Origin: Sulfuricurvum sp.
GTDB lineage: Bacteria; Campylobacterota; Campylobacteria; Campylobacterales; Sulfurimonadaceae
Assembly (NCBI RefSeq): GCF_028713855.1
Contig: NZ_JAQTNN010000002.1
Location: 124,001 to 188,000 of the forward strand
DNA: 64,000 bases
Reading direction: 5' to 3'
This document shows, in pieces, positions 11,737-30,568 of this stretch. Each line of letters begins with the position of its first letter. The first letter of the stretch is position 1. The position numbers and the translations under genes are program-made. The notes beneath the pieces were generated by a model. That model was given only the letters and a program-made list of their open reading frames with translations. It was not told the origin of the DNA and ran no database searches.

Positions 11737-14565
11737 ATGTTACTCACTGATCTAGTCGCGTATAAAAATGATTCTATTCCTTCTGATGCGACATTGTATG
11801 ATGCCATTAACCAAATGGGCAAAGAGGGAATCAGCCATGTCATATTGGTTGAAAATAATACAGCTGTCGGGATATTGACGCTCAAAAATATTATTGAACT
11901 TTATCGCAATGGCATTGATGGAAAAAGAAAAGCAATAGAATATTCCAGTTATCCTGTAATATCGATACATTCGGATCGTCCTGTTGAAATGGCGATAGAA
12001 TTGATGATTGATTATGAAATACGAAGACTTGTATTAATCGACGAACAAAAAAAATATATTTCCACCCTTATTCAAAGCGATATCCTTTCGTATTATGAAA
12101 CCAAAGTTCATACGGCTCATGAAGTGTTCCAATGTTTGAACCGTCGCAATCGTGCGGTCATTATTCAGAAGGATGCCAGCGTCTATGATGCAATTACTCT
12201 TCTTCAACACGAAAGTCGGGATGTTCTTATTGTTACGGATCAAACCGGCCCCATCGGGATAGTAACGGAACAGGATATATTGGAATTAGCGTATAAGAAT
12301 ATTTCAAGCAGTGAAAGTATCTTACGTTATATGCATGCTCCAATCATTTCCGTTGAAATGAATGAAAAAATTCATTATGCAATCGATATTATGAAAGAGA
12401 GAGGGATCCATCATTTAATGGTGCAAAGTAGAGAAAATGAATTGTATCTCTTAACTGAAAAAGATCTGGTCCTCAATTATAACACCGCATTAGAAGTGAA
12501 ACTCGAATCAAAGCTTCGGGATACCAAAGCTACGTATAATTTATTAGGATTGGCATTTTGTGAAATCATTGATCTGGGAGAACAACAGATTATCAAATGG
12601 CTGAATGCCGAAGCGATGATGACGTTTCAGGTGAAAATTGATGATCCTGTTTCTAAAATGTTTCCGGACGAGATTTGGAAACACTTTTTACATATATTAC
12701 GGACACAGGGTGGTGTGGATAAAGAAAAGGTTGAGATTCAGGGTCGTATGTATGAAGTGACATTGATCGAAGCAGAGGTGAATAATCAACCTATTATGAA
12801 GCTTTTTTTAAATGATATCAGCGAATTGATCCGTTTGAGTGAAGAATTGCGTAAGACGTTGGAATATACGATTGAGCTGGAACAGGAAAAAAGCAGTCTT
12901 TATCTGGATGTCGCATCAGTTATGTTTTTAGCACTGAATCAAGAGGGAAAAGTTGATTTGATTAATCCTAAAGGATGTCAAATCTTAGGAATTAGCCAAG
13001 ATGAGGCAATAGGAAAGGATTGGTTTGAAACCTTCACTTACAGTGAAGATAGGGAGATGGCTAAAGTTTTATTTGAGGATATTATTTCTGGAAGGCGTGA
13101 AATAGTCGAATATTACGAAAATAAGGTGCATACTAAAGACGGAGACATCCGGGTGATTGCATGGCACAATGCGGTGTTAAAAGATCGTAACGGTGTAATT
13201 ACAGGGATGTTTTCCTCAGGAGAGGATATCACCAAAATCCGAGAATCGGAGCGTGAAATTGAACGAATAACGCATTACGACGTTTTGACCAATCTGCCGA
13301 ACCGATTACTTTTGGGGGCACGTTTAGAGCACTCCATGCATCGGGCAAAACGTGAGAAAACAAAGCTAGCCGTGTTGTATGTGGATATTGATAACTTTAA
13401 AGATATTAATGAATCGTATGGCTACAATATAGGGGATTTTGTTATCAAACGAATAGCTTTGGAGATGAGAACATTGATCCGTCATGAAGATACTATTGCA
13501 CGTATAGGGGGCGATGAGTTTGTTATTATACTTGAAGAGATTCAGGAAATTAATGAGTGTGAGCGAACACTGAAGCAGGTTATGAATCTTTTTAAAGATC
13601 CGATAGATACATCATCCGGCAATTTAAAATTGACGGCGAGTATCGGGATTACCATATTTCCTGACGATGCAGAGGATGGAGAAACACTCTTAAAGAATGC
13701 TGATATTGCCTTGCGTCGTGCTAAAGAGAGTGGACAAAACAGTTATTATTTTTATACTCAGGAGATGAGCGTTCAATTGTTTGAGAGAGTGCTTTTAGAA
13801 CGAGAACTTCATCGTGCGGTTGAAGAAAAGGAATTTATCGTTTACTATCAGCCGCAAATTGACCTTAAAAGCGGTAAGGTGATCGGTGCAGAGGCATTGG
13901 TGCGATGGCAACACCCGTCGATTGGGATCGTACGGCCAGATATGTTTATAGCCCTGGCGGAGTCCAATCGTCTAATCATCCCCATCGGTGAGCAAGTCTT
14001 AGCTCAAGCATGTGAGAATGTCAAGCACCTGATCGAAAAGGGACTGTTCAGGGGAAGGATATCGGTTAACGTATCGGGTAAACAGTTTGAGCGTCCCGAT
14101 GTTGTTGAAACGCTTCATCGCATCATCATGGACAGCGGGCTAAGTCCGGAGTTTGTTGAATTAGAGATTACAGAGAGTGTCTTAATGAGTGATCCGAAAG
14201 TATTCGGTGAAAAACTTATAGCCCTTAAGGCACTTGGAATTGAAGTAGCGATTGATGATTTTGGTACGGGGTATTCGAGTTTGAGCTATCTGAAAACTTT
14301 TCCGATCGATAAATTGAAAATAGACCAATCGTTTGTTCGGGGAATCCCGAATGATGAACAAGACAGTGCGATCGTGAATGCGATTATCGCAATGGCCAAT
14401 GCATTAGGGCTTAAAACGATTGCTGAGGGGATTGAAGAGGAAGTTCAGGCTGATGCATTAAAAAAATACGGATGCCAACAAGGACAGGGATATCTGTACG
14501 CAAGACCACTCAGTGAAGAAAAATTTGTCGAATTTTTAAAGTATAATGAGATATCCAAATCATAA
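11737..14565 (+). CDS. Four-CBS, PAS, GGDEF and EAL c-di-GMP enzyme
   Basis: Cytoplasmic protein of 942 residues with no membrane span. Two CBS pairs (about 1-125 and 130-250) probably bind an adenine nucleotide. A PAS-like region (about 260-360) and a clear PAS domain (about 385-510) follow. The GGDEF domain has an intact active site at 591-595 and an RxxD inhibitory site (RHED) five residues before it. The EAL domain keeps EAL at 719-721, the LEITES motif, DDFGTGYSS and the general base Glu897 in EGIE. Both synthesis and breakdown of c-di-GMP are therefore possible, presumably tuned by energy state and PAS ligand. It has its own promoter. Confidence 0.92.
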   Translation: MLLTDLVAYKNDSIPSDATLYDAINQMGKEGISHVILVENNTAVGILTLKNIIELYRNGIDGKRKAIEYSSYPVISIHSDRPVEMAIELMIDYEIRRLVLIDEQKKYISTLIQSDILSYYETKVHTAHEVFQCLNRRNRAVIIQKDASVYDAITLLQHESRDVLIVTDQTGPIGIVTEQDILELAYKNISSSESILRYMHAPIISVEMNEKIHYAIDIMKERGIHHLMVQSRENELYLLTEKDLVLNYNTALEVKLESKLRDTKATYNLLGLAFCEIIDLGEQQIIKWLNAEAMMTFQVKIDDPVSKMFPDEIWKHFLHILRTQGGVDKEKVEIQGRMYEVTLIEAEVNNQPIMKLFLNDISELIRLSEELRKTLEYTIELEQEKSSLYLDVASVMFLALNQEGKVDLINPKGCQILGISQDEAIGKDWFETFTYSEDREMAKVLFEDIISGRREIVEYYENKVHTKDGDIRVIAWHNAVLKDRNGVITGMFSSGEDITKIRESEREIERITHYDVLTNLPNRLLLGARLEHSMHRAKREKTKLAVLYVDIDNFKDINESYGYNIGDFVIKRIALEMRTLIRHEDTIARIGGDEFVIILEEIQEINECERTLKQVMNLFKDPIDTSSGNLKLTASIGITIFPDDAEDGETLLKNADIALRRAKESGQNSYYFYTQEMSVQLFERVLLERELHRAVEEKEFIVYYQPQIDLKSGKVIGAEALVRWQHPSIGIVRPDMFIALAESNRLIIPIGEQVLAQACENVKHLIEKGLFRGRISVNVSGKQFERPDVVETLHRIIMDSGLSPEFVELEITESVLMSDPKVFGEKLIALKALGIEVAIDDFGTGYSSLSYLKTFPIDKLKIDQSFVRGIPNDEQDSAIVNAIIAMANALGLKTIAEGIEEEVQADALKKYGCQQGQGYLYARPLSEEKFVEFLKYNEISKS

Positions 14566-18236: not shown

Positions 18237-19315
18237 ATTTTTCACGCGTTAAATCCAAGCTTTTGGTGGAACATCCCTATTTCGGAACACTCTGCAGTGC
18301 ACTTGAAATCGTAGTGAACGATAACATCGAGAGCTTTACTCTGCAGGGGAATCGTTTCGAGTACCGAGAAGACTTTTTCAACACCCTTAGCGATGATCAG
18401 GTGGCATTTTCCCTCTCTAATGCCGCTCTTCACACCGTACTCTCTCATCCTTACCGTATCGGAAACCGCTCTCCTTGGCTATGGTATACTGCCTGTGAAC
18501 ATGCGATCAATAACATGCTGATCGATAACGATTTCACCCCTCCCAGTAAAATCACCTACGATCCCCGCTTTCGAGGGCAATATGCCGAAGAGATTTATGA
18601 GTTTTTAAAAGATACGATCACCCGTGAAGATATGAACGATAAAGACAGCGATTCACGCCGCAGTGATGAAAGTCTGGATCAAAAACTCCAAGGCGCACAA
18701 AATGAACAAATAGCCCAAAGCGCACTCGAAAAAGCGCAAAGCATGGAGACCCTTCCCGAAGGGCTGGAGCGGCTCATCCCTATAGTCGGTCGTGGACAAA
18801 TCGATTGGCGCAGCGAGTTGCGCGATTGTATCGGCGGATATTACATCAGTGATTATGCGATGATGCCCCCTTCCAAAAAGCTTCTTTACAGCGGTATCTA
18901 TCTCCCCAGTGCCACCTCGCATCATTTAGAACTCGTCATTGCGATCGACAGTTCGGGGTCGGTGGATGAGGTGCTTCTGGCGCAGTTTATTGCCGAGATT
19001 GAGTCGATTACCGAGCTTTTCGGCTCTTACACGATCACCGTGATCGTATGCGATGATCGAGTACGTTCACATCAGAGCTTTACCAACGGAGAATCGATAG
19101 CGTATACCCTTATAGGCGGTGGGGGAACCGATTTTATTCCTGTTTTTGAGTTTATCGAAAAGCAATTAACTCCTCCGAAGATATTACTTTATTTCACCGA
19201 TTTGGACGGTAAATTTCCGCTGTACGAGCCTCACTATGAGACGTTATGGATTGCACCTTTGAAGGCTGAAGTGCCGTTTGGACGGGTAATACCACTAAAG
19301 GATGAGAATGGTTGA
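18230..19315 (+). CDS. DUF2201/VWA-like partner of the MoxR ATPase
   Basis: The 361-residue protein has an N-terminal helical region resembling the metallopeptidase-like half of DUF2201 (ALHTVLSHPYRIGNR, then WYTACEHAINNML). The usual HE before LH is NA here, so a zinc peptidase activity is doubtful. The C-terminal VWA domain has an intact MIDAS: DSSGS (IAIDSSGSVDE), the Thr in GGGTDF, and Asp in FTDLDG. ATG at 18230 overlaps the MoxR stop and is preferred over an in-frame ATG 27 bases earlier. Such pairs assemble or activate target complexes; the target is not identifiable here. Confidence 0.82.
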   Translation: MLDFSRVKSKLLVEHPYFGTLCSALEIVVNDNIESFTLQGNRFEYREDFFNTLSDDQVAFSLSNAALHTVLSHPYRIGNRSPWLWYTACEHAINNMLIDNDFTPPSKITYDPRFRGQYAEEIYEFLKDTITREDMNDKDSDSRRSDESLDQKLQGAQNEQIAQSALEKAQSMETLPEGLERLIPIVGRGQIDWRSELRDCIGGYYISDYAMMPPSKKLLYSGIYLPSATSHHLELVIAIDSSGSVDEVLLAQFIAEIESITELFGSYTITVIVCDDRVRSHQSFTNGESIAYTLIGGGGTDFIPVFEFIEKQLTPPKILLYFTDLDGKFPLYEPHYETLWIAPLKAEVPFGRVIPLKDENG

Positions 19316-20561
19316 AAACGCATTAAAAATTTTGGAACATTCAAACCTCTTTATCACCGGCGGTGCGGGATCGGGTAAAACGACACTGACTCGTGCGCTG
19401 ATCGAGGATGCGGTGCAAAAAGGTAAATCGGTTGCCCGTCTCGCCTCGACGGGGATGGCGGCGACCCTCATCGGGGGACAGACTCTCCACAGTTTTTTTG
19501 ATTTGGGGATTGCCAATTCCCAAGAGGAGTTGGAGCGTAACGGCAAACTCGACCCTTCCAAAAAGATCATCAAACTCATTCACTCTATGCAGATCATCGT
19601 CATCGACGAGATTTCGATGGTGGGGGCAGCGTTACTCGATATGATTCGTTTGCGTTTGTTGCAATCAGAGTTTACGGGGCGAGTGATTGTTGTTGGGGAT
19701 TTTTTACAGCTTCCACCCGTCGTGCGGGGGAATGAGCCGATCTATTTTGCGTTTGAATCTCCCAGCTGGGAGCGACTCGGATTTGAGACACTGCATTTAG
19801 AAGGGTCATACCGAACCCATGAAGCGGAGTTTTTGAGCTTGCTCGAAAAAGTACGTCATGCCCGTCTCGATGAAGAGGCTCATGAGGCGTTGGACGCATT
19901 GGTAAAACCGCTGAATGAGGATAAATCGACAATTACACTGCTGTACGGTAAAAATATCAGTGCTCAGAATCATAACCGCTCTCAGTTGGAACATCTAGGC
20001 GGAGAGAGCATAGACATCTCCACCTATGTCACGATTCATGATAAAAAGATGCAGGAGCGTGAAGTAGAGCGATTTATGAGTGAAAGCCGAATCGAACCGA
20101 CTTTAGTTCTCAAAGTAGGTGCCCCGATCCTCTTTACTCGAAACGCATGGAACTATTACAACGGGGAACGGGGACGAATCACCTCCATTGAAGAAGAGGT
20201 GATTTGGGTCAAAAAAGAGGACGGGGTGAGTGTCAAAGTAGAGCGTGTCGATACCACTAAAACACGGTGGGTAGAAAAAGGGAGTACGGCAAGCGAAGAG
20301 AAACTGATTACCCTTGGTCAGTTTCCGATTACATTGGCCTTTGCAATCACAATTCATAAATCGCAGGGGATGAGCTTGGCAGATTACGTCATCGAGACCA
20401 ATGAAATTTTCGCCCCTTCACAGTTTTATGTGGCGCTTTCCCGCTCCGTATCGGCACACCGTGTGACATTGATTCGTCCGAATCGAGGGTGGGAGAAGCT
20501 TTGTTTTGTCCATCCCAAAGCGAGAGTATTTACGGAGAAACAATTTTTTATTATGAGATAG
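19308..20561 (+). CDS. PIF1/RecD-like superfamily 1 helicase
   Basis: A 417-residue ATPase with the superfamily 1B helicase motifs in order: motif I GGAGSGKTTL (about residue 19), motif II VIDEISMVG, motif III GDFLQLPPV, motif IV region GSYRTHE, motif V AFAITIHKSQGMSL and motif VI YVALSRS. It probably moves 5'-3' on single-stranded DNA, acting in replication or repair. AAGGA lies 5 bases before ATG 19308, which is chosen over ATG 19302. It overlaps the VWA gene by 8 bases, so it belongs to the same transcript, an unusual partner for a MoxR/VWA pair. Confidence 0.88.
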   Translation: MVENALKILEHSNLFITGGAGSGKTTLTRALIEDAVQKGKSVARLASTGMAATLIGGQTLHSFFDLGIANSQEELERNGKLDPSKKIIKLIHSMQIIVIDEISMVGAALLDMIRLRLLQSEFTGRVIVVGDFLQLPPVVRGNEPIYFAFESPSWERLGFETLHLEGSYRTHEAEFLSLLEKVRHARLDEEAHEALDALVKPLNEDKSTITLLYGKNISAQNHNRSQLEHLGGESIDISTYVTIHDKKMQEREVERFMSESRIEPTLVLKVGAPILFTRNAWNYYNGERGRITSIEEEVIWVKKEDGVSVKVERVDTTKTRWVEKGSTASEEKLITLGQFPITLAFAITIHKSQGMSLADYVIETNEIFAPSQFYVALSRSVSAHRVTLIRPNRGWEKLCFVHPKARVFTEKQFFIMR

Positions 20562-20574
20562 AATCAAAACAAGG

Positions 20575-20580
20575 TATGAT
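20575..20580 (+). promoter_or_regulatory. Possible -10 box for the photosensory operon
   Basis: TATGAT lies 34 bases before the ATG of the first phytochrome gene. It matches the -10 consensus at five of six bases; no -35 is evident. Confidence 0.3.
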
Positions 20581-20613
20581 AAAACATAAGGTTTGAAAAA
20601 GAAAGATAATTTG

Positions 20614-22197
20614 ATGATTGATAAACTACTCACAACGTGTGATCAAGAGCCGATTCATATTCTCTCACGAATTCAACAGTCCGGTTTTGTATTTGTTGTC
20701 AGCTATGAAGATTTCAGTGTTCTTCAAGTAAGTGATAATTGTATAGATCTCATCCATTGTGATCCCGATTTTATTCTCAACAGACCGCTTCAAAACTTTT
20801 TTGATGATCTTTTTATGCAACGTATAAAAGATAATGTTACTTTGAGATTTTTCGAAAAACGTCACTTTAAAGCCTTTAGTGCAGTCAATAATTCCAAAAA
20901 ACTTTTTTGTGCTGTCCATTGTGAAGAAAGATTTATTATTCTTGAAATAAGTGTTGAAAATAGTGCATTGGATATGAGCACAGAAATGATGTTCACAAGA
21001 GCAGTTTCATACGATAACCCACAACTCCCATTAATTGATCTTCTCCATTCTATCGCTTCCACTGTTCAAGACATCAGCGATTTTGATCGTGTTTTGATTT
21101 ATAAATTTGATGAAGACAACAACGGTACTGTGTTGGCCCAAGTAGAAAAAACATTCAGTGAAAACTTTTTAGGTCACCATTTTCCGGCATCAGATATCCC
21201 GGTACAAGCGCGTGCTCTCTATTTGAAAAACCGGTTTCGCATTATCGAAAATGTTGAGGAAAGCAGTGCTGTTCTCATCCCGACCATTAACCCATTGACC
21301 AACACCCCGCTTGATATGACTTTTTGCTATTCTCGCAGTGTATCTCCTATTCACCTGCAATATCTAAAAAACATGGGTGTGAATTCTTCGATGTCTATAT
21401 CTTTGATTATTCAAAATAAATTATGGGGATTGGTAGTATGCCATCATCCGAGTCCAAAAAAAATACCGTACGGTTTATATGAAAGCTATTCTCTTTTAAG
21501 TACCGTTTTTTCATCTCAAATTGAACAAAAAGAACATCTTATCCGTTATCAAGAATCGTCTGAATTACGTTTAAAACGGGAACTTTTTCTCAATTCACTT
21601 GGTTCTAAAAGTGATCTAACTTTTGTAAGTGCACTTACTGAAGAAATTGCAGTTTTGGAAACAGTTCTACCGTGTGATATCGCGGCTGTATATTACGAGG
21701 AAGATTTTATTGCCAGCAATGCGAAAGTTCCCGGATCAGAGCTATTTGATCTGCTTAGAATTATAAAAAATAATTTTAATGGCCAGTGCTTTCAGACTTC
21801 TCGCTTAGGAATTGAATTTCCTCAAGTTGCCCATTTTTCAATACCATTAGGGGGAATAATCGCAATTGAAATTTCCAATATTAACAATGCTTATCTTATG
21901 TTTATCCGATTCGAACAAATTTCTACGATCGAATGGGCAGGAGAACCGACCAAACAGTTCAATACAGAGAAAGGTATTTCTGTCATTAACCCCCGAGCTT
22001 CGTTTGAAAGCTGGAAAGAGATTGTAACTGGAACATCTCTCCCATTTTCTAGCGAAGAGCTCGATTCGGCACGACAATTATCTGAAGACCTTTACCGCGT
22101 TTATAACCAATGCAGAGTATCAGAAGAAACACGACAACTGAAAGCATTGCACACTCAACTTTTCGAATTAATAGAATGCAATCCCGAAGAAATGTAA
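20614..22197 (+). CDS. Phytochrome photosensory core without output domain
   Basis: A 527-residue bacteriophytochrome core. Cys9 in CDQEPIHI is placed exactly like the biliverdin-linking Cys of bacterial phytochromes. The PAS domain covers about 10-115, GAF about 140-300 with PASDIP and SPIHLQYLKNMGV (chromophore-pocket Asp and His) and the second pocket His in VCHHP, and PHY about 310-500 with the tongue motifs WAGEP and PRASF. The usual PHG after the Cys motif is QSG. After PHY only about 30 helical residues remain, so no kinase, GGDEF or other output is fused. It probably signals by contact with another protein. ATG 20614 is preferred over a TTG 21 bases earlier. Confidence 0.88.
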   Translation: MIDKLLTTCDQEPIHILSRIQQSGFVFVVSYEDFSVLQVSDNCIDLIHCDPDFILNRPLQNFFDDLFMQRIKDNVTLRFFEKRHFKAFSAVNNSKKLFCAVHCEERFIILEISVENSALDMSTEMMFTRAVSYDNPQLPLIDLLHSIASTVQDISDFDRVLIYKFDEDNNGTVLAQVEKTFSENFLGHHFPASDIPVQARALYLKNRFRIIENVEESSAVLIPTINPLTNTPLDMTFCYSRSVSPIHLQYLKNMGVNSSMSISLIIQNKLWGLVVCHHPSPKKIPYGLYESYSLLSTVFSSQIEQKEHLIRYQESSELRLKRELFLNSLGSKSDLTFVSALTEEIAVLETVLPCDIAAVYYEEDFIASNAKVPGSELFDLLRIIKNNFNGQCFQTSRLGIEFPQVAHFSIPLGGIIAIEISNINNAYLMFIRFEQISTIEWAGEPTKQFNTEKGISVINPRASFESWKEIVTGTSLPFSSEELDSARQLSEDLYRVYNQCRVSEETRQLKALHTQLFELIECNPEEM

Positions 22198-22199
22198 AA

Positions 22200-22221
22200 A
22201 GGCACTTTTAAGGCACTTTTA
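22200..22221 (+). promoter_or_regulatory. Perfect tandem 11-bp direct repeat, candidate operator
   Basis: AGGCACTTTTA occurs twice head to tail (22200-22210 and 22211-22221) in the 31-base gap between the phytochrome core and the winged-helix/LOV gene. OmpR/PhoB-type winged-helix proteins classically bind direct repeats with an 11-bp period, and the next gene encodes a protein with that fold. Autoregulation is inference. Confidence 0.5.
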
Positions 22222-22224
22222 CAT

Positions 22225-22230
22225 TACAAT
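22225..22230 (+). promoter_or_regulatory. Possible internal -10 box before the LOV gene
   Basis: TACAAT lies directly after the tandem repeat and would start a transcript at about 22237, next to the in-frame ATG at 22238. There is no ribosome site, which suits a leaderless message. Confidence 0.35.
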
Positions 22231-22957
22231 GAGCTTTATGGATGCGAATCAACTCATTAAATTATCGGAAAATTGCTATTGGAGCCCTTCTGATGAAGCA
22301 ATAGTACAGGATAATATAACTGAACTTCTCCCTGTAACTATGACAAAATTGATAAAATTTTTTGTTGAAAATCATGACAGACCAATCAGCAGTGTCGATA
22401 TTTTCTTCGCTATATGGGATGACTATGAAAAAGAATATAACGCAAAAAATGTTCGCAATTTAATTAGTAGTCTCAGAAAAAAAATACCGCTTATAAATAT
22501 CAACAACTATTACGGCGGACGGTATGTACTCAAAAAATATCGTGATAACACCCCTGATATAAGCGATTATCTGATTGAAATTCTAGACCAAGCTAAAAAT
22601 GGGATGATTATTACCGATCCGAACATAAGTGATAATCCTATTGTATTTGTTAATGAAGCTTTTACGGAAATGTTTGGTTATTTGCCGGAGGAAGTCATCG
22701 GACGAAACAGCCGTTTTCTCCAAGGCGAAGACCGTGATCAACCTGCTCTTGATAAAATCCGAGCTGCGATCAAAGAAGAAAAAGATATTACGGTAACCGT
22801 GCGAAATTATACAAAAGAGGGGCAATTGGTTTACAATGAATTGTCCATTAGTCCTATTTTTGACAAAAAAACTGAAAGAATAAAATATTTTTTAGGAATT
22901 GAAAAAAATGTGACCGCTATCCAAGATATCATCAAAAAAATTAAAGCTATTGTCTGA
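22229..22957 (+). CDS. Winged-helix DNA-binding protein with cysteine-less LOV domain
   Basis: The first 105 residues look like an OmpR/PhoB-type winged helix (RPISSVDIFFAIWDDYE, NVRNLISSLRKKIPL, then the wing YYGGRYVL). A LOV-type PAS domain follows (about 118-240): NPIVFVNEAFTEMFGY, EEVIGRNSRFLQG, then TVTVRNYTKEG. In photoactive LOV domains the motif is NCRFLQ; here codon 22709-22711 is AGC, so the adduct-forming Cys is Ser161. FMN binding residues (N160, R162, Q165) are kept. No receiver domain is present. The order winged helix then LOV is the reverse of well-known LOV-HTH regulators. An alternative start is ATG 22238. Confidence 0.85.
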   Translation: MSFMDANQLIKLSENCYWSPSDEAIVQDNITELLPVTMTKLIKFFVENHDRPISSVDIFFAIWDDYEKEYNAKNVRNLISSLRKKIPLININNYYGGRYVLKKYRDNTPDISDYLIEILDQAKNGMIITDPNISDNPIVFVNEAFTEMFGYLPEEVIGRNSRFLQGEDRDQPALDKIRAAIKEEKDITVTVRNYTKEGQLVYNELSISPIFDKKTERIKYFLGIEKNVTAIQDIIKKIKAIV

Positions 22958-22960
22958 CGT

Positions 22961-24691
22961 ATGTTGAAACAGCCAATAGAAATAGTCAAAAATGATGAAG
23001 TTATACAGGCGATTATTGATCAAATTCCTGATCCGATACTCTATATAAAACCTGATTATACGGTTACATTGATGAACAAAGCAGCCAATAATTTAGATCT
23101 TTCGGTTTCCATCAATGATAGTGCAAAATGTTACAATCTTATTCATCATAGCCGATTTCCTTGCACCGAAGATATTGAATATTGTCCACTTGAGCATGTT
23201 CGTTCTACTAAAAAACCATCTATTTCTCGACATCAACGGATTGATAAAAAAGGTGATCTACACCATGTTGAAATTAGTGTCAGCCCAATGATGGATAATG
23301 AAGGTTCCATCATTGGCTATCTTGAGGTAATGCACGATATTACTGAACATCTCTCCATCCAGCATAAATTACTTCAAGAGGCACAAAGACTATCTCATAT
23401 ATCGATGCATGACCCGTTAACGATGCTGCCTAATCGAAAACTGCTAACCGATCGTATTGATCAAGCTATAGAGCATAAAAGCCGCTCGGGTGAAATGTTT
23501 GGCGTGTTTTTTGTCGATTTAGACCATTTTAAGAATATCAATGATTCTTTGGGACATTTAATGGGAGATAAGCTCCTTATTGAAGTGGCAAAACGGATGC
23601 GGCAAGTATGTCGAAAAGGAGATACCGTCTCTCGTATAGGAGGAGATGAATTTGTCCTTGTTATCGAAAATGGAATTTCTAATACTCATTTTGTCACGGT
23701 AGCCGCAAAAATACAGAGTCTTTTCAATGACCCTTTTATAATCGACGGAGAAAAGATATTCAGTACCTGCAGTATCGGTATAAGTGTTTTTCCTCAGGAT
23801 GGGACAACGACAGAAACACTGCTTAATAATGCGGACGTAGCAATGTACGCGTCAAAAAATGTCGGTCGAAATCAATTTCGTTTTTTCTCATCGGATATGA
23901 CGCAACAAGCCTACGCTTATCTTCAAATGGGGGACGATTTAAAAACTGCTATATTCAATGAAGAATTTGTTCTCCATTATCAACCGCTCTTCGATTTTCA
24001 TTCAAAAGTATGTTCAAGTATTGAAGTATTAATACGCTGGAATCATCCGCAAAAAGGGTTTATGCGTCCTGATGACTTTTTGCCGGTTGCTAAAAAAGCG
24101 GGGTTGATGAAAGAGATCGATTTGTGGGTAATTCAAAAAGCATTTGATACCTTTTCAGCATTGTTATCACGTAATATTGCACCTGATACGATTTCGGTCA
24201 ATATCACAACATCGACTTTGTTTCTCCCTGAATTTTTATCGGTGTTAGAAAAAATGATAGATAAAAGCCGTATTGATCCACATCGTATCGTATTTGAAAT
24301 TATTGAGAGTCAGCTTATCAAAGACGCCATCATTGCCCAAAATGTGATCAAAGAACTTCATAAAATCGGTATTCAGGTAGCTTTGGATAATTTTGGAACC
24401 GGATATTCATCCCTGAGTTATTTGATCGATTTTGGTATCAATACTCTTAAAATAGATCAGTCCTCTATCCATAATCTTAATGAAAAAGGGGCACTTTTGA
24501 TCAAAAGTATCGTATCACTTTCAAACACTATCGGGCTTAAAATGGTTGCTCAGGGTGTTGAAACAAAAGAGCAGCAAAGTTTTTTGATCGACAACGGTAT
24601 CAACACAATGCAAGGATATGTTATTACGAAACCGATGATTGCCAATGATTTAATCCAATTTTTAGAAAATACTTACCATAAAGCAGTATGA
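22961..24691 (+). CDS. PAS-GGDEF-EAL protein with degenerate EAL domain
   Basis: A soluble 576-residue protein. The PAS domain (about 12-130) has three cysteines in the pattern KCYNLIH, FPCTED, YCPLEH, seen in some PAS domains that may hold a metal or redox group. GGDEF is intact at 227-231 with an RxxD product site (RKGD) just before it, so it can probably make c-di-GMP. The EAL domain reads EVL at 355-357, has D476-N477 where active enzymes have two Asp, and Q531 in place of the general-base Glu of EGVE. It is therefore likely a poor or dead phosphodiesterase, perhaps a c-di-GMP sensor. The gene follows the LOV gene after three bases. Confidence 0.9.
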   Translation: MLKQPIEIVKNDEVIQAIIDQIPDPILYIKPDYTVTLMNKAANNLDLSVSINDSAKCYNLIHHSRFPCTEDIEYCPLEHVRSTKKPSISRHQRIDKKGDLHHVEISVSPMMDNEGSIIGYLEVMHDITEHLSIQHKLLQEAQRLSHISMHDPLTMLPNRKLLTDRIDQAIEHKSRSGEMFGVFFVDLDHFKNINDSLGHLMGDKLLIEVAKRMRQVCRKGDTVSRIGGDEFVLVIENGISNTHFVTVAAKIQSLFNDPFIIDGEKIFSTCSIGISVFPQDGTTTETLLNNADVAMYASKNVGRNQFRFFSSDMTQQAYAYLQMGDDLKTAIFNEEFVLHYQPLFDFHSKVCSSIEVLIRWNHPQKGFMRPDDFLPVAKKAGLMKEIDLWVIQKAFDTFSALLSRNIAPDTISVNITTSTLFLPEFLSVLEKMIDKSRIDPHRIVFEIIESQLIKDAIIAQNVIKELHKIGIQVALDNFGTGYSSLSYLIDFGINTLKIDQSSIHNLNEKGALLIKSIVSLSNTIGLKMVAQGVETKEQQSFLIDNGINTMQGYVITKPMIANDLIQFLENTYHKAV

Positions 24692-24719
24692 TGAGATATA
24701 CAACTCGAAGGAATTTTAT

Positions 24720-25301
24720 ATGACACTCCGTCAACGCCTTAAAGAATTAACCGCTCCATTTCATGCAGAACTCGAAAAAACACCCGTTGCAATTGCCCTT
24801 GCCGAGGGATCTATCACACGGGAAGACTATGCTATTTATCTAACCAAATTAGCTGCTATTCATCAAACTTTGGAACCGATTTTGATAGGAATGAGGGAAT
24901 GGGCACACTATGAAATTAATCCGGCTCTTCGTACGCGGTTTGCTTTATTAAAAGCTGATCTTGCTGCTTTGGAACAGGAAATTCCCTATACCGAATCAAC
25001 AGTTTTTATCGATACGCCTCCAACTTTTGAAACAGCTATCGGGATGATGTATGTTTTGGAAGGTTCTACCATGGGAGGGCAGATACTTTCTCGAAAACTA
25101 TCCCATATGATCGGTGCCGACGGAGTGCCTTGTACTCGATATTTTCAGGCTTATGGTGAAAATACCATGCGGTTATGGGGCGAATTTTGCCAATTTTTGG
25201 ATTGCTTTGAAGCGAAAAATCCCCTCTTAAGTGATCATGTGATTTTGGGCGCATGCGCTATGTTTTTAACTATTCAAAAAGATATGTATGAACTTAATTG
25301 A
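24720..25301 (+). CDS. bphO: Biliverdin-forming heme oxygenase
   Basis: Cleaves haem to biliverdin, CO and iron. The 193-residue protein has the proximal haem ligand in APFHAELE (His15-equivalent region) and the distal-helix signature GMMYVLEGSTMGG, followed by the C-terminal helices of the family. AAGGA precedes the start. It overlaps the second phytochrome by 14 bases, so both are translated together; biliverdin is the chromophore phytochromes need. An iron-acquisition role is less likely because no haem uptake genes are nearby. Confidence 0.93.
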   Translation: MTLRQRLKELTAPFHAELEKTPVAIALAEGSITREDYAIYLTKLAAIHQTLEPILIGMREWAHYEINPALRTRFALLKADLAALEQEIPYTESTVFIDTPPTFETAIGMMYVLEGSTMGGQILSRKLSHMIGADGVPCTRYFQAYGENTMRLWGEFCQFLDCFEAKNPLLSDHVILGACAMFLTIQKDMYELN

Positions 25302-27819
25302 TTTTAGCCTGTGTGAAAAAGAGCCTATACATATTCCAGGATTGATTCAACCGCACGGGATAGCTCTTTCATACGATATTGCCAGCCTTGTCATTACAGG
25401 AGTAAGCGAAAATTTCCCCAATGCTGAGAAGATTATCGGAGCATCACTGCATACCGTATTCCCCGATGAATTGATAGAAAAATTTTCTACCTTTGTTGAT
25501 GCACCATCCCAGAAACAGCAAATATTTCATAACCAAACCGTCAGTTTCATCAATGAGGCCTCTATCGATTTGATCCAATGTTGCAGTGATAACGAGATGA
25601 TTATTGAGATGGTGCCCTCTCCATCTTATGAGTATCTCAGTACCTCACAGCATAGCCTGGGAGAGATTACTAAACGGCTGCTCTCCCTTTCTTCAATTGA
25701 GCAAATGTGTGAGCAGGCTGCCATCGAGGTTGAGAAGATGACGGGCTATGATCGGGTAATGATTTACCGATTTGACAATGATTTTAACGGATCCGTTATT
25801 GCAGAAGCCAAACGAGATGATATGGAATCGTACCTTGGGCTTAACTATCCGGCATCGGATATTCCCTCTCAAGCACGGGAGCTTTTTCGAAAAAATTTAG
25901 TACGGTGTATTATTGATGTCGATTACCGTCCGATAGGATTCCTTCGTGAGCCCTCCAGGGTACCATTGGATATGACTTATAGCTATCTGCGAAGTGTATC
26001 TCCGGTCCACATAGAATATCTTAAAAACATGGGTGTTCAATCCACCATGACTATTTCTATTCTGATTGACGGTGAATTATGGGGGTTAATTGCATGTCAT
26101 CATAGACAAGCGCATAAACTTTCATTGAATTATTTGGAACTGGTCGAGAATTTTGGCAAAATTTTTGCAGGACTTATAAAAACCAGGATACAAGGAGAAG
26201 AACAGCGTCGAACGGTACAGCTTCATTCTACTCTGGAGGCAATTGCTGCGAGTATCCAGACGGATCGCAGCAACCAAGAGCTTATTTCACTGTTATCAAA
26301 CCATGCCCAACTCTTTTATTCACTCTTTGATGCAGATGGATTTGCATTGCTGATCGGCGAAGAGATAGTGAGCTATAACCATCAATATTCCAAAGAAGTA
26401 CTTTCGAAGATGATTCAATATATTCAGCCTTTTATGGAAAATGGATCATTTTTTACTTCACGGCTTATAACGGTTCTACCCGATTTTTCCGAACAATTTT
26501 TGAGAGAATGTTCAGGTTTAATCGTGATAGAAGTGCCTATGAATATCCCAAGCTATTGGCTATGGTTTAGACGTGAAAAAGCTCAAACGCTCACATGGGG
26601 CGGTAATCCGTATGAAAAAGCAACACTTAATGATCAGGGGGGAATCTCTCCACGTAAATCATTTGCGGCGTTTAAGGAAACGGTGCGTTATCAATCTGAT
26701 CCATGGCAGAGATCTGAAATTGCGTTTGGAAATCACTTTATCCCCATTATCACCCATCTGTATCAAGGGTTTGAATCCCAGAAAAAAGTGATTGTACAAC
26801 AACATCAGATCAAACAAATGGAAGATGAAAAACTGTTGCACTACAAACAGCTTTTAGAGAGTCTGGTGGACTTAATAGAGCAACGAGATGCCTACACGGC
26901 CGGTCACACTCGACGCGTTGCGGTTTATTGTGATTTGATTGCCAAAACTATCGGATTAACTGTCGATCAGCGGTCTCAACTCTACGAAGCGGCGATCTTG
27001 CATGACATTGGAAAAGTAGTCGTCCCTGATGCTATTTTGCTCAAGCCTGGTCGATTAGACAGCAGTGAGTATGAATTGATAAAATCTCATCTCAATACGG
27101 GATACCAAATGCTAAGCCGAATTTCGTATTATCGTCCTTTAGCCGACATAATTCGGTGTCATCATGAAAAGTACAATGGAACAGGTTATCCAAGAGGTCT
27201 TATGGGCGATGATATTCCTCTTGCCTCACATATTATGATTGTTGCCGATGCGATCGATGCGATGACTAGCAACCGTATTTATCAGCCACGTCGCTCTATG
27301 GCAGAATCGATTGAAGAGATTATCCGTTATCGAGGAATTTGGTATCATCCCCGTGTTGTCGATGCCGCTGTATTAGCCTTACAAACCTTAGATGGCGACG
27401 ATATTGCGTCACAAATTCCGATAACTCCGATAGAACGTGCCCGATTTTCATATTACTTTAAAGACCAGTTAACCGGTGTATACAATGAATCGTACCTGCA
27501 TATGATCATTCACAGTTTAGTCCCCGATGTTATATACCGTCATTATCTATTGGTTGAGATCAAAGGGATGTCAGATTACAATGCTAATCATGGATGGCAT
27601 GCCGGAAATACCTTGATACATACCATTTCTCAGCAATTACAATCTACGATTCCCGTTGAGCAGATCTTTCGTGTTTTTGGAGATGACTTCATTATCGGTA
27701 GCCATTCTTCAGATGAGCATACACTATACAAACAAACATTGTATCAATGTATGCATGATGTTAGCACTGTCATACAAGAAGTTGATATCGATGATTTGAT
27801 GAAGATGCTTGAAGAATAA
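25288..27819 (+). CDS. Bacteriophytochrome with HD-GYP and degenerate GGDEF output
   Basis: An 843-residue red/far-red photoreceptor. Cys9 in CEKEPIHIPGLIQPHG is the canonical biliverdin-linking site. PAS (about 10-115), GAF (about 135-300, with YPASDIP, SPVHIEYLKNMGV and ACHH) and PHY (about 310-500, with WGGNP and PRKSF) form the sensor. The output is HD-GYP (about 515-700): YTAGHTRR, H572-D573 in HDIGK, H625-H626 in HHEKYNGTGYP, and ADAIDAM, so the metal ligands are intact. The last 125 residues are GGDEF-like but read FGDDF (797-801) and are likely inactive. It should be a light-controlled c-di-GMP phosphodiesterase. It starts within bphO. Confidence 0.92.
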   Translation: MNLIDFSLCEKEPIHIPGLIQPHGIALSYDIASLVITGVSENFPNAEKIIGASLHTVFPDELIEKFSTFVDAPSQKQQIFHNQTVSFINEASIDLIQCCSDNEMIIEMVPSPSYEYLSTSQHSLGEITKRLLSLSSIEQMCEQAAIEVEKMTGYDRVMIYRFDNDFNGSVIAEAKRDDMESYLGLNYPASDIPSQARELFRKNLVRCIIDVDYRPIGFLREPSRVPLDMTYSYLRSVSPVHIEYLKNMGVQSTMTISILIDGELWGLIACHHRQAHKLSLNYLELVENFGKIFAGLIKTRIQGEEQRRTVQLHSTLEAIAASIQTDRSNQELISLLSNHAQLFYSLFDADGFALLIGEEIVSYNHQYSKEVLSKMIQYIQPFMENGSFFTSRLITVLPDFSEQFLRECSGLIVIEVPMNIPSYWLWFRREKAQTLTWGGNPYEKATLNDQGGISPRKSFAAFKETVRYQSDPWQRSEIAFGNHFIPIITHLYQGFESQKKVIVQQHQIKQMEDEKLLHYKQLLESLVDLIEQRDAYTAGHTRRVAVYCDLIAKTIGLTVDQRSQLYEAAILHDIGKVVVPDAILLKPGRLDSSEYELIKSHLNTGYQMLSRISYYRPLADIIRCHHEKYNGTGYPRGLMGDDIPLASHIMIVADAIDAMTSNRIYQPRRSMAESIEEIIRYRGIWYHPRVVDAAVLALQTLDGDDIASQIPITPIERARFSYYFKDQLTGVYNESYLHMIIHSLVPDVIYRHYLLVEIKGMSDYNANHGWHAGNTLIHTISQQLQSTIPVEQIFRVFGDDFIIGSHSSDEHTLYKQTLYQCMHDVSTVIQEVDIDDLMKMLEE

Positions 27820-27840
27820 GTAGTAGAGTTGACAGTATAA

Positions 27841-28575
27841 TTATTTAAAAATTGCTACAAATATATATTTATACGAAAACATCACGCTAAACACCGCTGC
27901 GAGCAACGCCACCGCCACCATCATATACATCACCGCGAGCTGATAGGAGATTGCTTTGAGCGGATCGGCACCCGCGAGAAGCATCCCCGTCGTAATACCG
28001 GGAATATGGATGATCCCGACTGTCTGGAGCATATTAAGCGTCGGAATCATGGACGCTTTGACGGACGCTTTGGAAGCAAAGGAGAGAGCTTCTTTGAGCG
28101 GTGCGCCCAGTGCCACCATCCCCTCGATCGTTTCTATCGTATTTTTTACCTCGGCGCGAAACCGCTCGATGCTTTGGGTATAAACATTGAGAGCATTTCC
28201 GATAATCATCCCCCCGATGGGGATCATCTCATGGGGAACCATGTGGATCACTCCGAACGCCATCATGGATAAAAATACGACCCCCGAAGAGGCTCCTAGC
28301 GTAAAAAAGGCGATTTTAAAACTGTGCTCTCCCAGAGGGGAGCGCTTTTTGGCGGTATAGGCACCGAAAGTGACCATCCCGAGCAAAACAAAAAACAGCA
28401 GAGACGGATGGGATATTTTAAAGAGATAAACGAGAGCATAGCCGAGCAGTCCAAGTTGAACCATCGCCAAAATCGAGTTCGTAAGGATGGTTTTCTCTAG
28501 ACCGAACTGTTCACGGCGTGAGTACCATAGGGCAAAAATGATGAGGAGATACGAGGCTAAAAAAGAGTATTGCAT
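27841..28575 (-). CDS. UPF0014/FetB-like ABC permease
   Basis: A 244-residue inner-membrane protein with about seven spans. The conserved segment IPGITTGMLLAGADPLKAISYQ (two pieces of the UPF0014 signature) and the preceding amphipathic helix of alternating small and charged residues match the FetB/YbbM family, whose E. coli member helps iron export. No FetA-like ATPase gene lies next to it, so its ATPase partner is elsewhere or its substrate differs. It is convergent with the phytochrome gene and lies 7 bases after the diguanylate cyclase stop-to-start direction. Confidence 0.8.
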   Translation of the reverse strand: MQYSFLASYLLIIFALWYSRREQFGLEKTILTNSILAMVQLGLLGYALVYLFKISHPSLLFFVLLGMVTFGAYTAKKRSPLGEHSFKIAFFTLGASSGVVFLSMMAFGVIHMVPHEMIPIGGMIIGNALNVYTQSIERFRAEVKNTIETIEGMVALGAPLKEALSFASKASVKASMIPTLNMLQTVGIIHIPGITTGMLLAGADPLKAISYQLAVMYMMVAVALLAAVFSVMFSYKYIFVAIFK

Positions 28576-28582
28576 GCTGCTG

Positions 28583-29839
28583 TTATGAACAGTTTTCGGC
28601 TAGAACAATCTTGTTCCGCCCTGTTCTTTTGGCTTGGTAGAGTGCATTGTCAGCTAGTTTGAGGATATCAGTGACATTATTGAGTATCCCACATTGAGGA
28701 TGATAGATACCGATACTAATCGTTATTCTAAATATAAGCTCATGATAGACAAATGGGTGGTCCTGAATGCGCTGACGGATTTTTTCACATTTAGTGACAG
28801 CCTGTTCTTGAGTGATACGGTTAAAGATAACGACAAACTCTTCACCGCCTGCACGATACACACTGTCTTGAGGACGAACTGATTCTAAAAAGATTTTGGC
28901 TAACTCGGTCAATACAAAATCTCCTGCATCATGTCCGTAAGTATCATTGATTTTTTTAAACCAGTCAATATCCAGCATTACAACTGCATAGCTGCTTTGG
29001 TATACGTGCTGATGATCGATCAACCCTTGTAGCTCTTTTTCCATGTTAAGACGATTTTTCAATCCGGTTAGTGGGTCGTGTGAAGCCAAATGGGCAAGTT
29101 TTTCATTCGCCAGAGTCAGTTTATTCGTTCGGATTTTAATCTCTTCTTGCAGGTTATGTTCATGCCAGACTATTTTTTGGAAAAGCGTTGCCATTTTATG
29201 TGCCATTGGTTGGAAGATAAAAATAATCTCGAGCAACAAGGTAATAATGGTTAGTATCCAGATCGTGAAAAGCATTGCCTGAATTTTTTCAATATTAGCA
29301 TTGCCTTCTTTTTGATACTGTAACCCTGCAGCATTTAAATCGTTCACGAGGGTATTGGAAGATGTGATTATCTTAGTTGTTATGATACTGGCTTCTTTAT
29401 ACGTTTTGGCATGTATTAATTTATCGATTAATACTAGATAATCATCTACCCGATTTTTGAGATGTTTTTGTCCAAAATAAAGTTCATAGATTTCGTACGA
29501 TAGTTCATGTTCGTCTCCATCATTTATCTTTCCGGATAACAGTTTCTCATTCGCATCACGCATTTCAAAGGAGGCTTTGGTCAATAATTCTCGAATTTTG
29601 GTGTGTTCATTGCTGTTTTTTGGATTCAATAAACTCAGATAATAGAGCTGTGAATACAATGCGATACGTTGCGAAAGCATTCTCTGATTTCCGGATAAAT
29701 TGACGATAAAGGCAGTGGATTCACTGCTTTTAAGAGTTGTTTTTAGGGCATAAAAAGCACTGCTTGAAAGGATTGCCAATATTACAATGGCGATGAGATA
29801 GTGTCGTGTAAAACTATATCTAATCTCTTTTGAGTGCAT
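28583..29839 (-). CDS. Membrane diguanylate cyclase with PilJ-type sensor
   Basis: A 418-residue protein with two membrane spans (about residues 10-30 and 185-205). The periplasmic part has NLSGNQRMLSQRIALYSQL, the signature of the PilJ/NarX-type helical sensor. A coiled linker leads to a GGDEF domain (about 250-418) with GGEEF in RAGGEEFVVIF, an allowed active variant. It should make c-di-GMP in response to an outside signal. ATG at 29839 has a GGAAAGAG ribosome site; an in-frame ATG 33 bases upstream has none. Confidence 0.9.
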   Translation of the reverse strand: MHSKEIRYSFTRHYLIAIVILAILSSSAFYALKTTLKSSESTAFIVNLSGNQRMLSQRIALYSQLYYLSLLNPKNSNEHTKIRELLTKASFEMRDANEKLLSGKINDGDEHELSYEIYELYFGQKHLKNRVDDYLVLIDKLIHAKTYKEASIITTKIITSSNTLVNDLNAAGLQYQKEGNANIEKIQAMLFTIWILTIITLLLEIIFIFQPMAHKMATLFQKIVWHEHNLQEEIKIRTNKLTLANEKLAHLASHDPLTGLKNRLNMEKELQGLIDHQHVYQSSYAVVMLDIDWFKKINDTYGHDAGDFVLTELAKIFLESVRPQDSVYRAGGEEFVVIFNRITQEQAVTKCEKIRQRIQDHPFVYHELIFRITISIGIYHPQCGILNNVTDILKLADNALYQAKRTGRNKIVLAENCS

Positions 29840-29971
29840 GTCTCTTTCCGTAATTTCTATATAATTAATCATATCACATTAGACGGTGGATTACTCAAAA
29901 ATGCGATTGAAGCGAAGTTATTTGAATGCTTTGGGAAAGAAAAAGAAGAAACCCCCGAAGGGGAAGGAAAA

Positions 29972-30568
29972 TTAAAGGCTATCAGAGTGTGCAGCAAGAT
30001 ACTCAGCAACACCCTCAGTACTAGCTTTCATACCTGCGTCACCTTTTGCCCAACCTGCAGGACAAACTTCACCGTGTTCGTTAGTGAACAACATCGCATC
30101 GATCATGCGAAGCATCTCATCAATGTTGCGTCCAAGTGGAAGATCGTTGATTACCGCGTGACGTACTGTTCCGTCTTTGTCGAGGAGGAATGAACCGCGA
30201 AGTGCTACAGAATCACCGAGCAATACATCGTAATCGCGTGAGATTTGTTTGGTAAGGTCTGCTACGAGTGGATAGCGAACTTGACCGATACCGCCTTGGT
30301 TTACCGGAGTGTTTTTCCATGCAAAGTGACTGAATTGTGAGTCAACCGATACACCGATAACGTTGATTCCGCGTTCTGTGAATGACTCTAAACGGTGATC
30401 AAATGCGATCAATTCAGACGGACATACGAAAGTAAAGTCCAACGGATAGAAGAACAATACGGCACCTTTTTCACCAAGGTTTTCATAGAGGTTGAAGTTA
30501 TCAACGATTTGGTTGTTTCCGAGGACAGTTGTCGCAGTAAAGTCAGGAGCTTTTTTAGTAACGAGCAT
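29972..30568 (-). CDS. Typical 2-Cys peroxiredoxin (AhpC/Prx1 class)
   Basis: Reduces peroxides in the cytoplasm. The 198-residue protein has the peroxidatic Cys in FYPLDFTFVCPSE (about residue 49) and the resolving Cys in EVCPAGW (about residue 170), the two-Cys layout of the AhpC/Tsa class. AAGGA lies 6 bases before ATG 30568, so that start is chosen over an in-frame one 48 bases upstream. A -10 box precedes it. No ahpF is nearby, so thioredoxin is the likely reductant. Confidence 0.95.
   Translation of the reverse strand: MLVTKKAPDFTATTVLGNNQIVDNFNLYENLGEKGAVLFFYPLDFTFVCPSELIAFDHRLESFTERGINVIGVSVDSQFSHFAWKNTPVNQGGIGQVRYPLVADLTKQISRDYDVLLGDSVALRGSFLLDKDGTVRHAVINDLPLGRNIDEMLRMIDAMLFTNEHGEVCPAGWAKGDAGMKASTEGVAEYLAAHSDSL

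Follow-up and report, generated by a model that had tools for sequence, protein, structure and literature searches.

A probably acquired phytochrome and cyclic di-GMP gene cassette with a regulator of LOV descent in a Sulfuricurvum genome

Why should a sulfur-oxidising, non-photosynthetic chemolithotroph of redox gradients carry receptors for red light? This question is raised by five genes of Sulfuricurvum sp. (family Sulfurimonadaceae; assembly GCF_028713855.1), since light sensing is, to our knowledge, not generally associated with Campylobacterota. The genes lie in a 64,000-nucleotide stretch of contig NZ_JAQTNN010000002.1 (positions 124,001 to 188,000 of the forward strand), hereafter the window, and encode two phytochromes (PhyA and PhyB), a regulator with a winged helix-turn-helix and a light-oxygen-voltage domain (wHTH-LOV), a PAS-GGDEF-EAL protein and a heme oxygenase. 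All five reading frames are open on the same strand, and the gaps between them are, in order, 31, 3, 28 and -14 bases. A preliminary description, made from the letters alone, had recognised this block and its Campylobacterota host correctly. We suggest, as the probable though by no means certain explanation, that the block is a horizontally acquired switch linking red light to cyclic di-GMP (c-di-GMP), in which PhyB would oppose a diguanylate cyclase under the control of an autoregulator of LOV descent.

Both phytochromes have the features of bacteriophytochromes (BphPs), namely the PAS2-GAF-PHY sensor, an N-terminal Cys, the PASDIP motif and the pocket His, and the heme oxygenase gene is adjacent to that of PhyB. 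Cys9, PASDIP and the equivalents of His260 and His290 were found in both proteins as previously described, together with the equivalents of Tyr176, Arg222, Arg254 and Tyr263 and the Arg and Ser of the tongue motif PRxSF. The other pocket residues checked are likewise kept in both proteins, the exceptions being changes that also occur in relatives (Tyr for Phe203, Phe for Tyr216 in PhyB). The site of the GAF Cys is occupied by Ile or Val, which points to the biliverdin rather than the phycocyanobilin type. PhyB continues into an HD-GYP domain (motifs HDIGK, SHLNTGY and HHEKYNGTGYP) and a degenerate GGDEF domain (GDDF) with a weak Pfam match. In the phytochrome tree it falls in an HD-GYP clade of seven (support 95/96), all of which retain the HD-GYP motif residues and the degenerate GGDEF domain. 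The motif-complete HD-GYP domain is predicted to be an active c-di-GMP phosphodiesterase. Since PhyB alone in this set combines an intact light-sensor pocket with an intact c-di-GMP output, light would most likely act through its HD-GYP domain.

PhyA ends just past the PHY domain, and Pfam detected no output domain. Its relatives at 38-50% identity carry histidine kinase-receiver (HK-REC) or PAS-GGDEF outputs, and the other members of its clade (support 100/100) have such outputs or are broken (L043). The likeliest role for PhyA would be in trans, on the PAS-GGDEF protein, failing which it would be a relic; this is the weakest point of the proposed mechanism. Other output-less phytochromes (494-517 amino acids; L046, L039 and L044) make up an independent clade and have CheB/CheR-PAS or GGDEF-EAL genes nearby, and a stand-alone sensor module thus recurs in the order. 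A PhyA-type phytochrome at L048 (2501-5032, minus strand) lacks the Cys and several pocket residues, has Asn for the Asp of PASDIP, and adjoins a wHTH-LOV gene with a conserved operator.

In the PAS-GGDEF-EAL protein, encoded two genes upstream of PhyB, the A-site and I-site of the GGDEF domain are intact (RKGD...RIGGDEF), and the EAL domain has two catalytic substitutions, DD to DN (Asn477) and AEG to AQG (Gln531). Seven aligned EAL-bearing relatives and MorA have Asp and Glu at these positions, and the substitutions were seen only in the window; the EAL domain is probably dead. The expected balance would be between this cyclase and the phosphodiesterase of PhyB.

The heme oxygenase (PF01126, E 3.6e-10, above the cut-off; weak match to PDB 1sk7) would supply the chromophore, and its distribution follows that of the phytochromes. 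In agreement with the rarity assumed beforehand, a phylum-wide sample of 397 genomes contained four with PHY domains; in the family the count was 9 of 228 genomes. Heme oxygenase was detected in eight of the 228, every one with a phytochrome (hypergeometric p ~6e-14, uncorrected for common descent); it was not detected in the one other phytochrome genome (G415), which is only 74% complete. The gene stands directly upstream of the HD-GYP phytochrome in 7/7 members of the PhyB type including the window, which represent four genera and two families. The order wHTH-LOV ... GGDEF, heme oxygenase, PhyB is shared by three other genomes of three genera (L034, L038 and L042). The photosensory and c-di-GMP gene set of the preliminary description is thus supported, and the genes are not neighbours by chance.

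Detailed comparison of these loci suggests how the arrangement may have arisen. In L034 and L042, a CheB/CheR-histidine kinase gene lies between the wHTH-LOV and GGDEF genes, the GGDEF protein has a REC domain (L034) or a receiver-like start (L042), and the heme oxygenase-PhyB pair is appended to this module. The set of wHTH-LOV, CheB/CheR-HK and REC-PAS-GGDEF(-EAL) was also found without phytochromes in many further genomes, and in an f10 genome the gene after wHTH-LOV again begins with CheB-CheR. The wHTH-LOV family is represented in 33 of the 228 family genomes, a few of these members being recognised from the LOV part alone, and extends to two further families of the order. In the window and L038, the kinase is missing, as is the REC domain of the cyclase, and no full-length CheB/CheR-HK was found elsewhere in the window's own genome or in G551. 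At L194 (G327:C72), genes for a CheB/CheR-HK, a REC-PAS protein and a GGDEF-EAL protein occur together in a genome where no wHTH-LOV was found. We rejected a 528-amino-acid gene upstream of wHTH-LOV in L038 as a degenerate PhyA; its product has zero similarity to PhyA and resembles a secreted or outer-membrane protein.

The block also appears as an insertion. The PIF1 and UPF0014 genes are adjacent and convergent in the ten congeners examined, and the cassette separates them in the window; the copies in relatives sit among other neighbours. The cassette genes have a G+C content (GC) of 34-41% (29-38% at third codon positions, GC3), compared with 47.5% for PIF1 and 48.0% for UPF0014. The clean insertion and low GC would also suit an ordinary Proteobacteria-type bacteriophytochrome/c-di-GMP operon transferred into Sulfuricurvum, with wHTH-LOV as an unimportant accessory PAS regulator. 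Elsewhere, c-di-GMP enzymes linked to bacteriophytochromes, and phytochrome genes next to heme oxygenase, have been described (PMC8846402; a Shinella plasmid record in which a heme oxygenase lies under the match). However, the search of genome contigs and plasmids for a donor gave only distant matches to the sensor part, the closest relative outside the phylum being ~35% identical in that part only, and three families of the order share a module made up of wHTH-LOV, its operator and the partner genes. Based on these observations, we consider such a plain transfer unlikely.

We then consider what the wHTH-LOV protein may do. Residues 7-98 were modelled by AlphaFold2 as an OmpR-type winged helix (four-strand sheet, three helices and C-terminal hairpin; predicted local distance difference test, pLDDT, ~90). 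The LOV half was modelled poorly (pLDDT ~55), so its identity rests on sequence and not on fold search; it matches YtvA (4gcz/2pr5, the closest solved structures) and phototropin LOV domains. In the motif GRNSRFLQG, Ser (codon 22709-22711) replaces the photoactive Cys, and Gln513 (AsLOV2 numbering) is replaced by Glu, while the remaining flavin contacts are kept (Asn449, Arg451, Gln454, Arg467, Asn482 and Asn492). Among 33 members, the adduct-site residue is Cys in 29, Ser in the window, Pro in L038 and L102, and Ile in L113. The Cys is lost in two of the four members linked to heme oxygenase-PhyB versus 2 of 29 others; L038 and L102 share one loss, and we dropped this correlation for having too few events. 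A GXNxRF[LM]-type motif, which would indicate a second canonical LOV in the same genome, was present in none of the ten best hits besides the window protein itself. Signalling has been reported to persist in LOV proteins that lack the Cys or the Gln (PMC4682037; PMC9098866), so these losses do not prove blindness. We suggest that the window protein could at best sense flavin redox state or, weakly, light, and that its relatives probably sense blue light. The LOV protein of the preliminary description is therefore unlikely to sense blue light in the canonical way, and the flavin state and DNA binding named there are possible roles, strengthened by the flavin-pocket residues, the winged-helix fold and the conserved operator described below.

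Upstream of the wHTH-LOV gene we observed the pattern GRYACTT-N4-GRYACTT-N6-TANAAT, followed by 6-7 nucleotides and ATG. In the window, it begins three bases past the PhyA stop codon, with GGCACTT at 22201-22207 and 22212-22218 and the -10 box TACAAT at 22225-22230. The ATG of the longest frame, at 22229, lies partly within the -10 box; translation therefore probably begins at 22238, on a leaderless mRNA. In the pho box, 7-bp direct repeats with a 4-bp spacer lie just upstream of the -10 box. The repeat is present (<=2 mismatches) in 20 of 21 wHTH-LOV clade members, the exception being L102, and the operator also occurs at L048 and L181, in two other families. The full pattern at fixed -10 spacing was found in 17/21 within <=3 mismatches, versus 0.0 in dinucleotide-block shuffled controls, which only approximate a dinucleotide model; the count is from related sequences and not of independent events. 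When 20 genomes were scanned for the exact pattern, 12 of the 16 sites preceded a wHTH-LOV gene; the other four are close to the reversed-pattern control (3), and we do not claim a wider regulon. There is apparently one operator per genome. We predict that wHTH-LOV binds this pho-box-like internal promoter and is an autoregulator. The five close genes are thus probably not one simple operon as formerly described, with a conserved promoter between PhyA and the LOV gene. The gene types then given hold, and the HD-GYP and degenerate GGDEF domains of PhyB, the missing output of PhyA, the EAL substitutions, the loss of the LOV Cys and this promoter had been overlooked.

In the mechanism that we propose, heme oxygenase would make biliverdin, which Cys9 of PhyA and PhyB would bind. 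Red/far-red light would switch PhyB, and its HD-GYP domain would break down c-di-GMP against the cyclase, the direction of this response being itself a prediction. At its own promoter, the wHTH-LOV protein would bind the direct repeat of 11-bp period that covers the -35 region, and would so control its own level and those of the cyclase, heme oxygenase and PhyB. An older phosphorelay from CheB/CheR-kinase to REC would have been removed, and the light input moved to the phytochromes. A more specific version is tentative and, in our judgement, rather doubtful: here, the phytochrome pair took over an ancestral LOV/two-component c-di-GMP module, wHTH-LOV without Cys and Gln became a flavin-redox autoregulator, and the output-less PhyA, acting in trans, feeds light to the PAS-GGDEF cyclase in place of the lost kinase-to-REC relay, in opposition to the HD-GYP phosphodiesterase of PhyB.

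Here, we need to consider that several points weigh against an acquired red-light switch. First, no relative has the exact five-gene order of the window. Second, a PhyA-type phytochrome beside wHTH-LOV recurs only in another architecture (L041 and L048). Third, the wHTH domain (Pfam Trans_reg_C) scores 25.9 bits, narrowly below the curated cut-off of 26.2. Fourth, low GC favours acquisition without proving it. Finally, the branch of the window wHTH-LOV is long (0.45 versus a median of 0.09), which could mean decay. This last point would fit a decaying relic, in which LOV photochemistry, the kinase link, EAL activity and the PhyA output were lost and the remainder is drifting, and one locus has indeed lost the Cys, the Gln, REC, HK, two EAL residues and the PhyA output. 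However, besides the five open frames, both phytochromes keep their pocket residues on short to moderate branches, GGDEF, the I-site, HD-GYP and the operator are intact, and the LOV half, 68-73% identical to its nearest relatives, is conserved no less than the wHTH half; we regard decay as quite improbable.

It may also be considered that the cassette mainly senses redox state or oxygen rather than light and tunes c-di-GMP at an oxic/anoxic boundary. It is well established that heme oxygenase requires O2 and that the hosts live in redox gradients. Moreover, reduction of the flavin is a signal to which LOV-like proteins without the Cys respond (PMC4682037). However, the photochemical pocket is retained in PhyA and PhyB alike, and heme oxygenase occurs only with phytochromes among the family genomes, which leaves this the least probable of the explanations considered.

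When compared with known systems, the proposed red-light switch shares PAS2-GAF-PHY, the N-terminal Cys, biliverdin and c-di-GMP turnover with c-di-GMP bacteriophytochromes (Rhodobacter sphaeroides BphG1; PDB 5llw), and differs in its output (HD-GYP with pseudo-GGDEF, not GGDEF(-EAL)), its Campylobacterota host and its wHTH-LOV module. Cys-less LOV regulators (Yee et al. 2015, PMC4682037; RmcA PASd, PMC8846402) likewise have the LOV fold and flavin-pocket residues with the Cys replaced, but the window protein is fused to an OmpR-type winged helix, has also lost the active-site Gln, and has close relatives that keep the Cys. EL222, a LOV-LuxR HTH protein, also couples LOV to DNA binding, whereas here an N-terminal OmpR/PhoB-type winged helix precedes a Cys-less LOV and the operator is 7-4-7. 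YtvA-family blue-light receptors share the LOV sequence and flavin contacts and have a STAS output, unlike the window copy, which also lacks the Cys and Gln. Like PhoB/OmpR-family promoters, the operator has direct repeats in a 7-4-7 arrangement that covers the -35 region, but the repeat is GRYACTT, the regulator has no receiver domain, and there is apparently one site per genome. Comparison of the locus with its relatives brings out a conserved wHTH-LOV regulator that, in three families of the order, is coupled to a pho-box-like operator of its own, a pair ready-made for optogenetics. It also seems to be a natural case of one light sensor exchanged for another in a signalling module, and offers a compact system for studying sensor swaps in c-di-GMP networks and why chemolithotrophs measure red light.

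Table 1. Features of the cassette and its flanks (positions in the window).
Feature	Position	Strand	Basis
PhyA (PAS2-GAF-PHY, without output domain)	20614-22197	+	Pfam; pocket residues
wHTH-LOV regulator	longest open reading frame (ORF) 22229-22957; probable start 22238	+	ORF, Pfam, motifs, promoter position
PAS-GGDEF-EAL protein, without the REC domain of relatives	22961-24691	+	Pfam; motif alignment
Heme oxygenase, BphO type, predicted biliverdin source	24720-25301	+	PF01126; weak PDB 1sk7 match; phytochrome co-occurrence
PhyB (PAS2-GAF-PHY-HD-GYP + degenerate GGDEF, FGDDF)	25288-27819	+	Pfam HD_5; motifs
Tandem operator and promoter (predicted)	22201-22230	+	conserved upstream of wHTH-LOV gene
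Inserted cassette, ~7.3 kb	20562-27840	.	congener comparison; GC
Flank: PIF1-like helicase, core gene of genus	19302-20561	+	
Flank: UPF0014 membrane protein, core gene	27841-28575	-	

Searches of open-licence papers found no report of phytochromes in Campylobacterota, Epsilonproteobacteria or Sulfuricurvum, nor of LOV in Sulfurimonas, which is weak evidence of absence; the sole candidate paper concerns Thiohalomonadales. The Rfam search of window positions 20000-30500 gave no matches. Further c-di-GMP enzymes are encoded nearby. Just beyond UPF0014 lies another diguanylate cyclase (28583-29872, minus strand; PilJ-like N-terminus, GGDEF), which L188 and L189 share at the same site and other congeners lack there, and a CBS-PAS-GGDEF-EAL protein (11737-14565, plus strand) is encoded ~6 kb upstream of the cassette. 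Finally, positions 38848-63818 hold an apparent polysaccharide biosynthesis cluster (Wzz/GNVR-AAA_31 protein, glycosyltransferase and UDP-GlcNAc 2-epimerase) with low GC through ~49-61 kb, which could be a c-di-GMP-controlled output.

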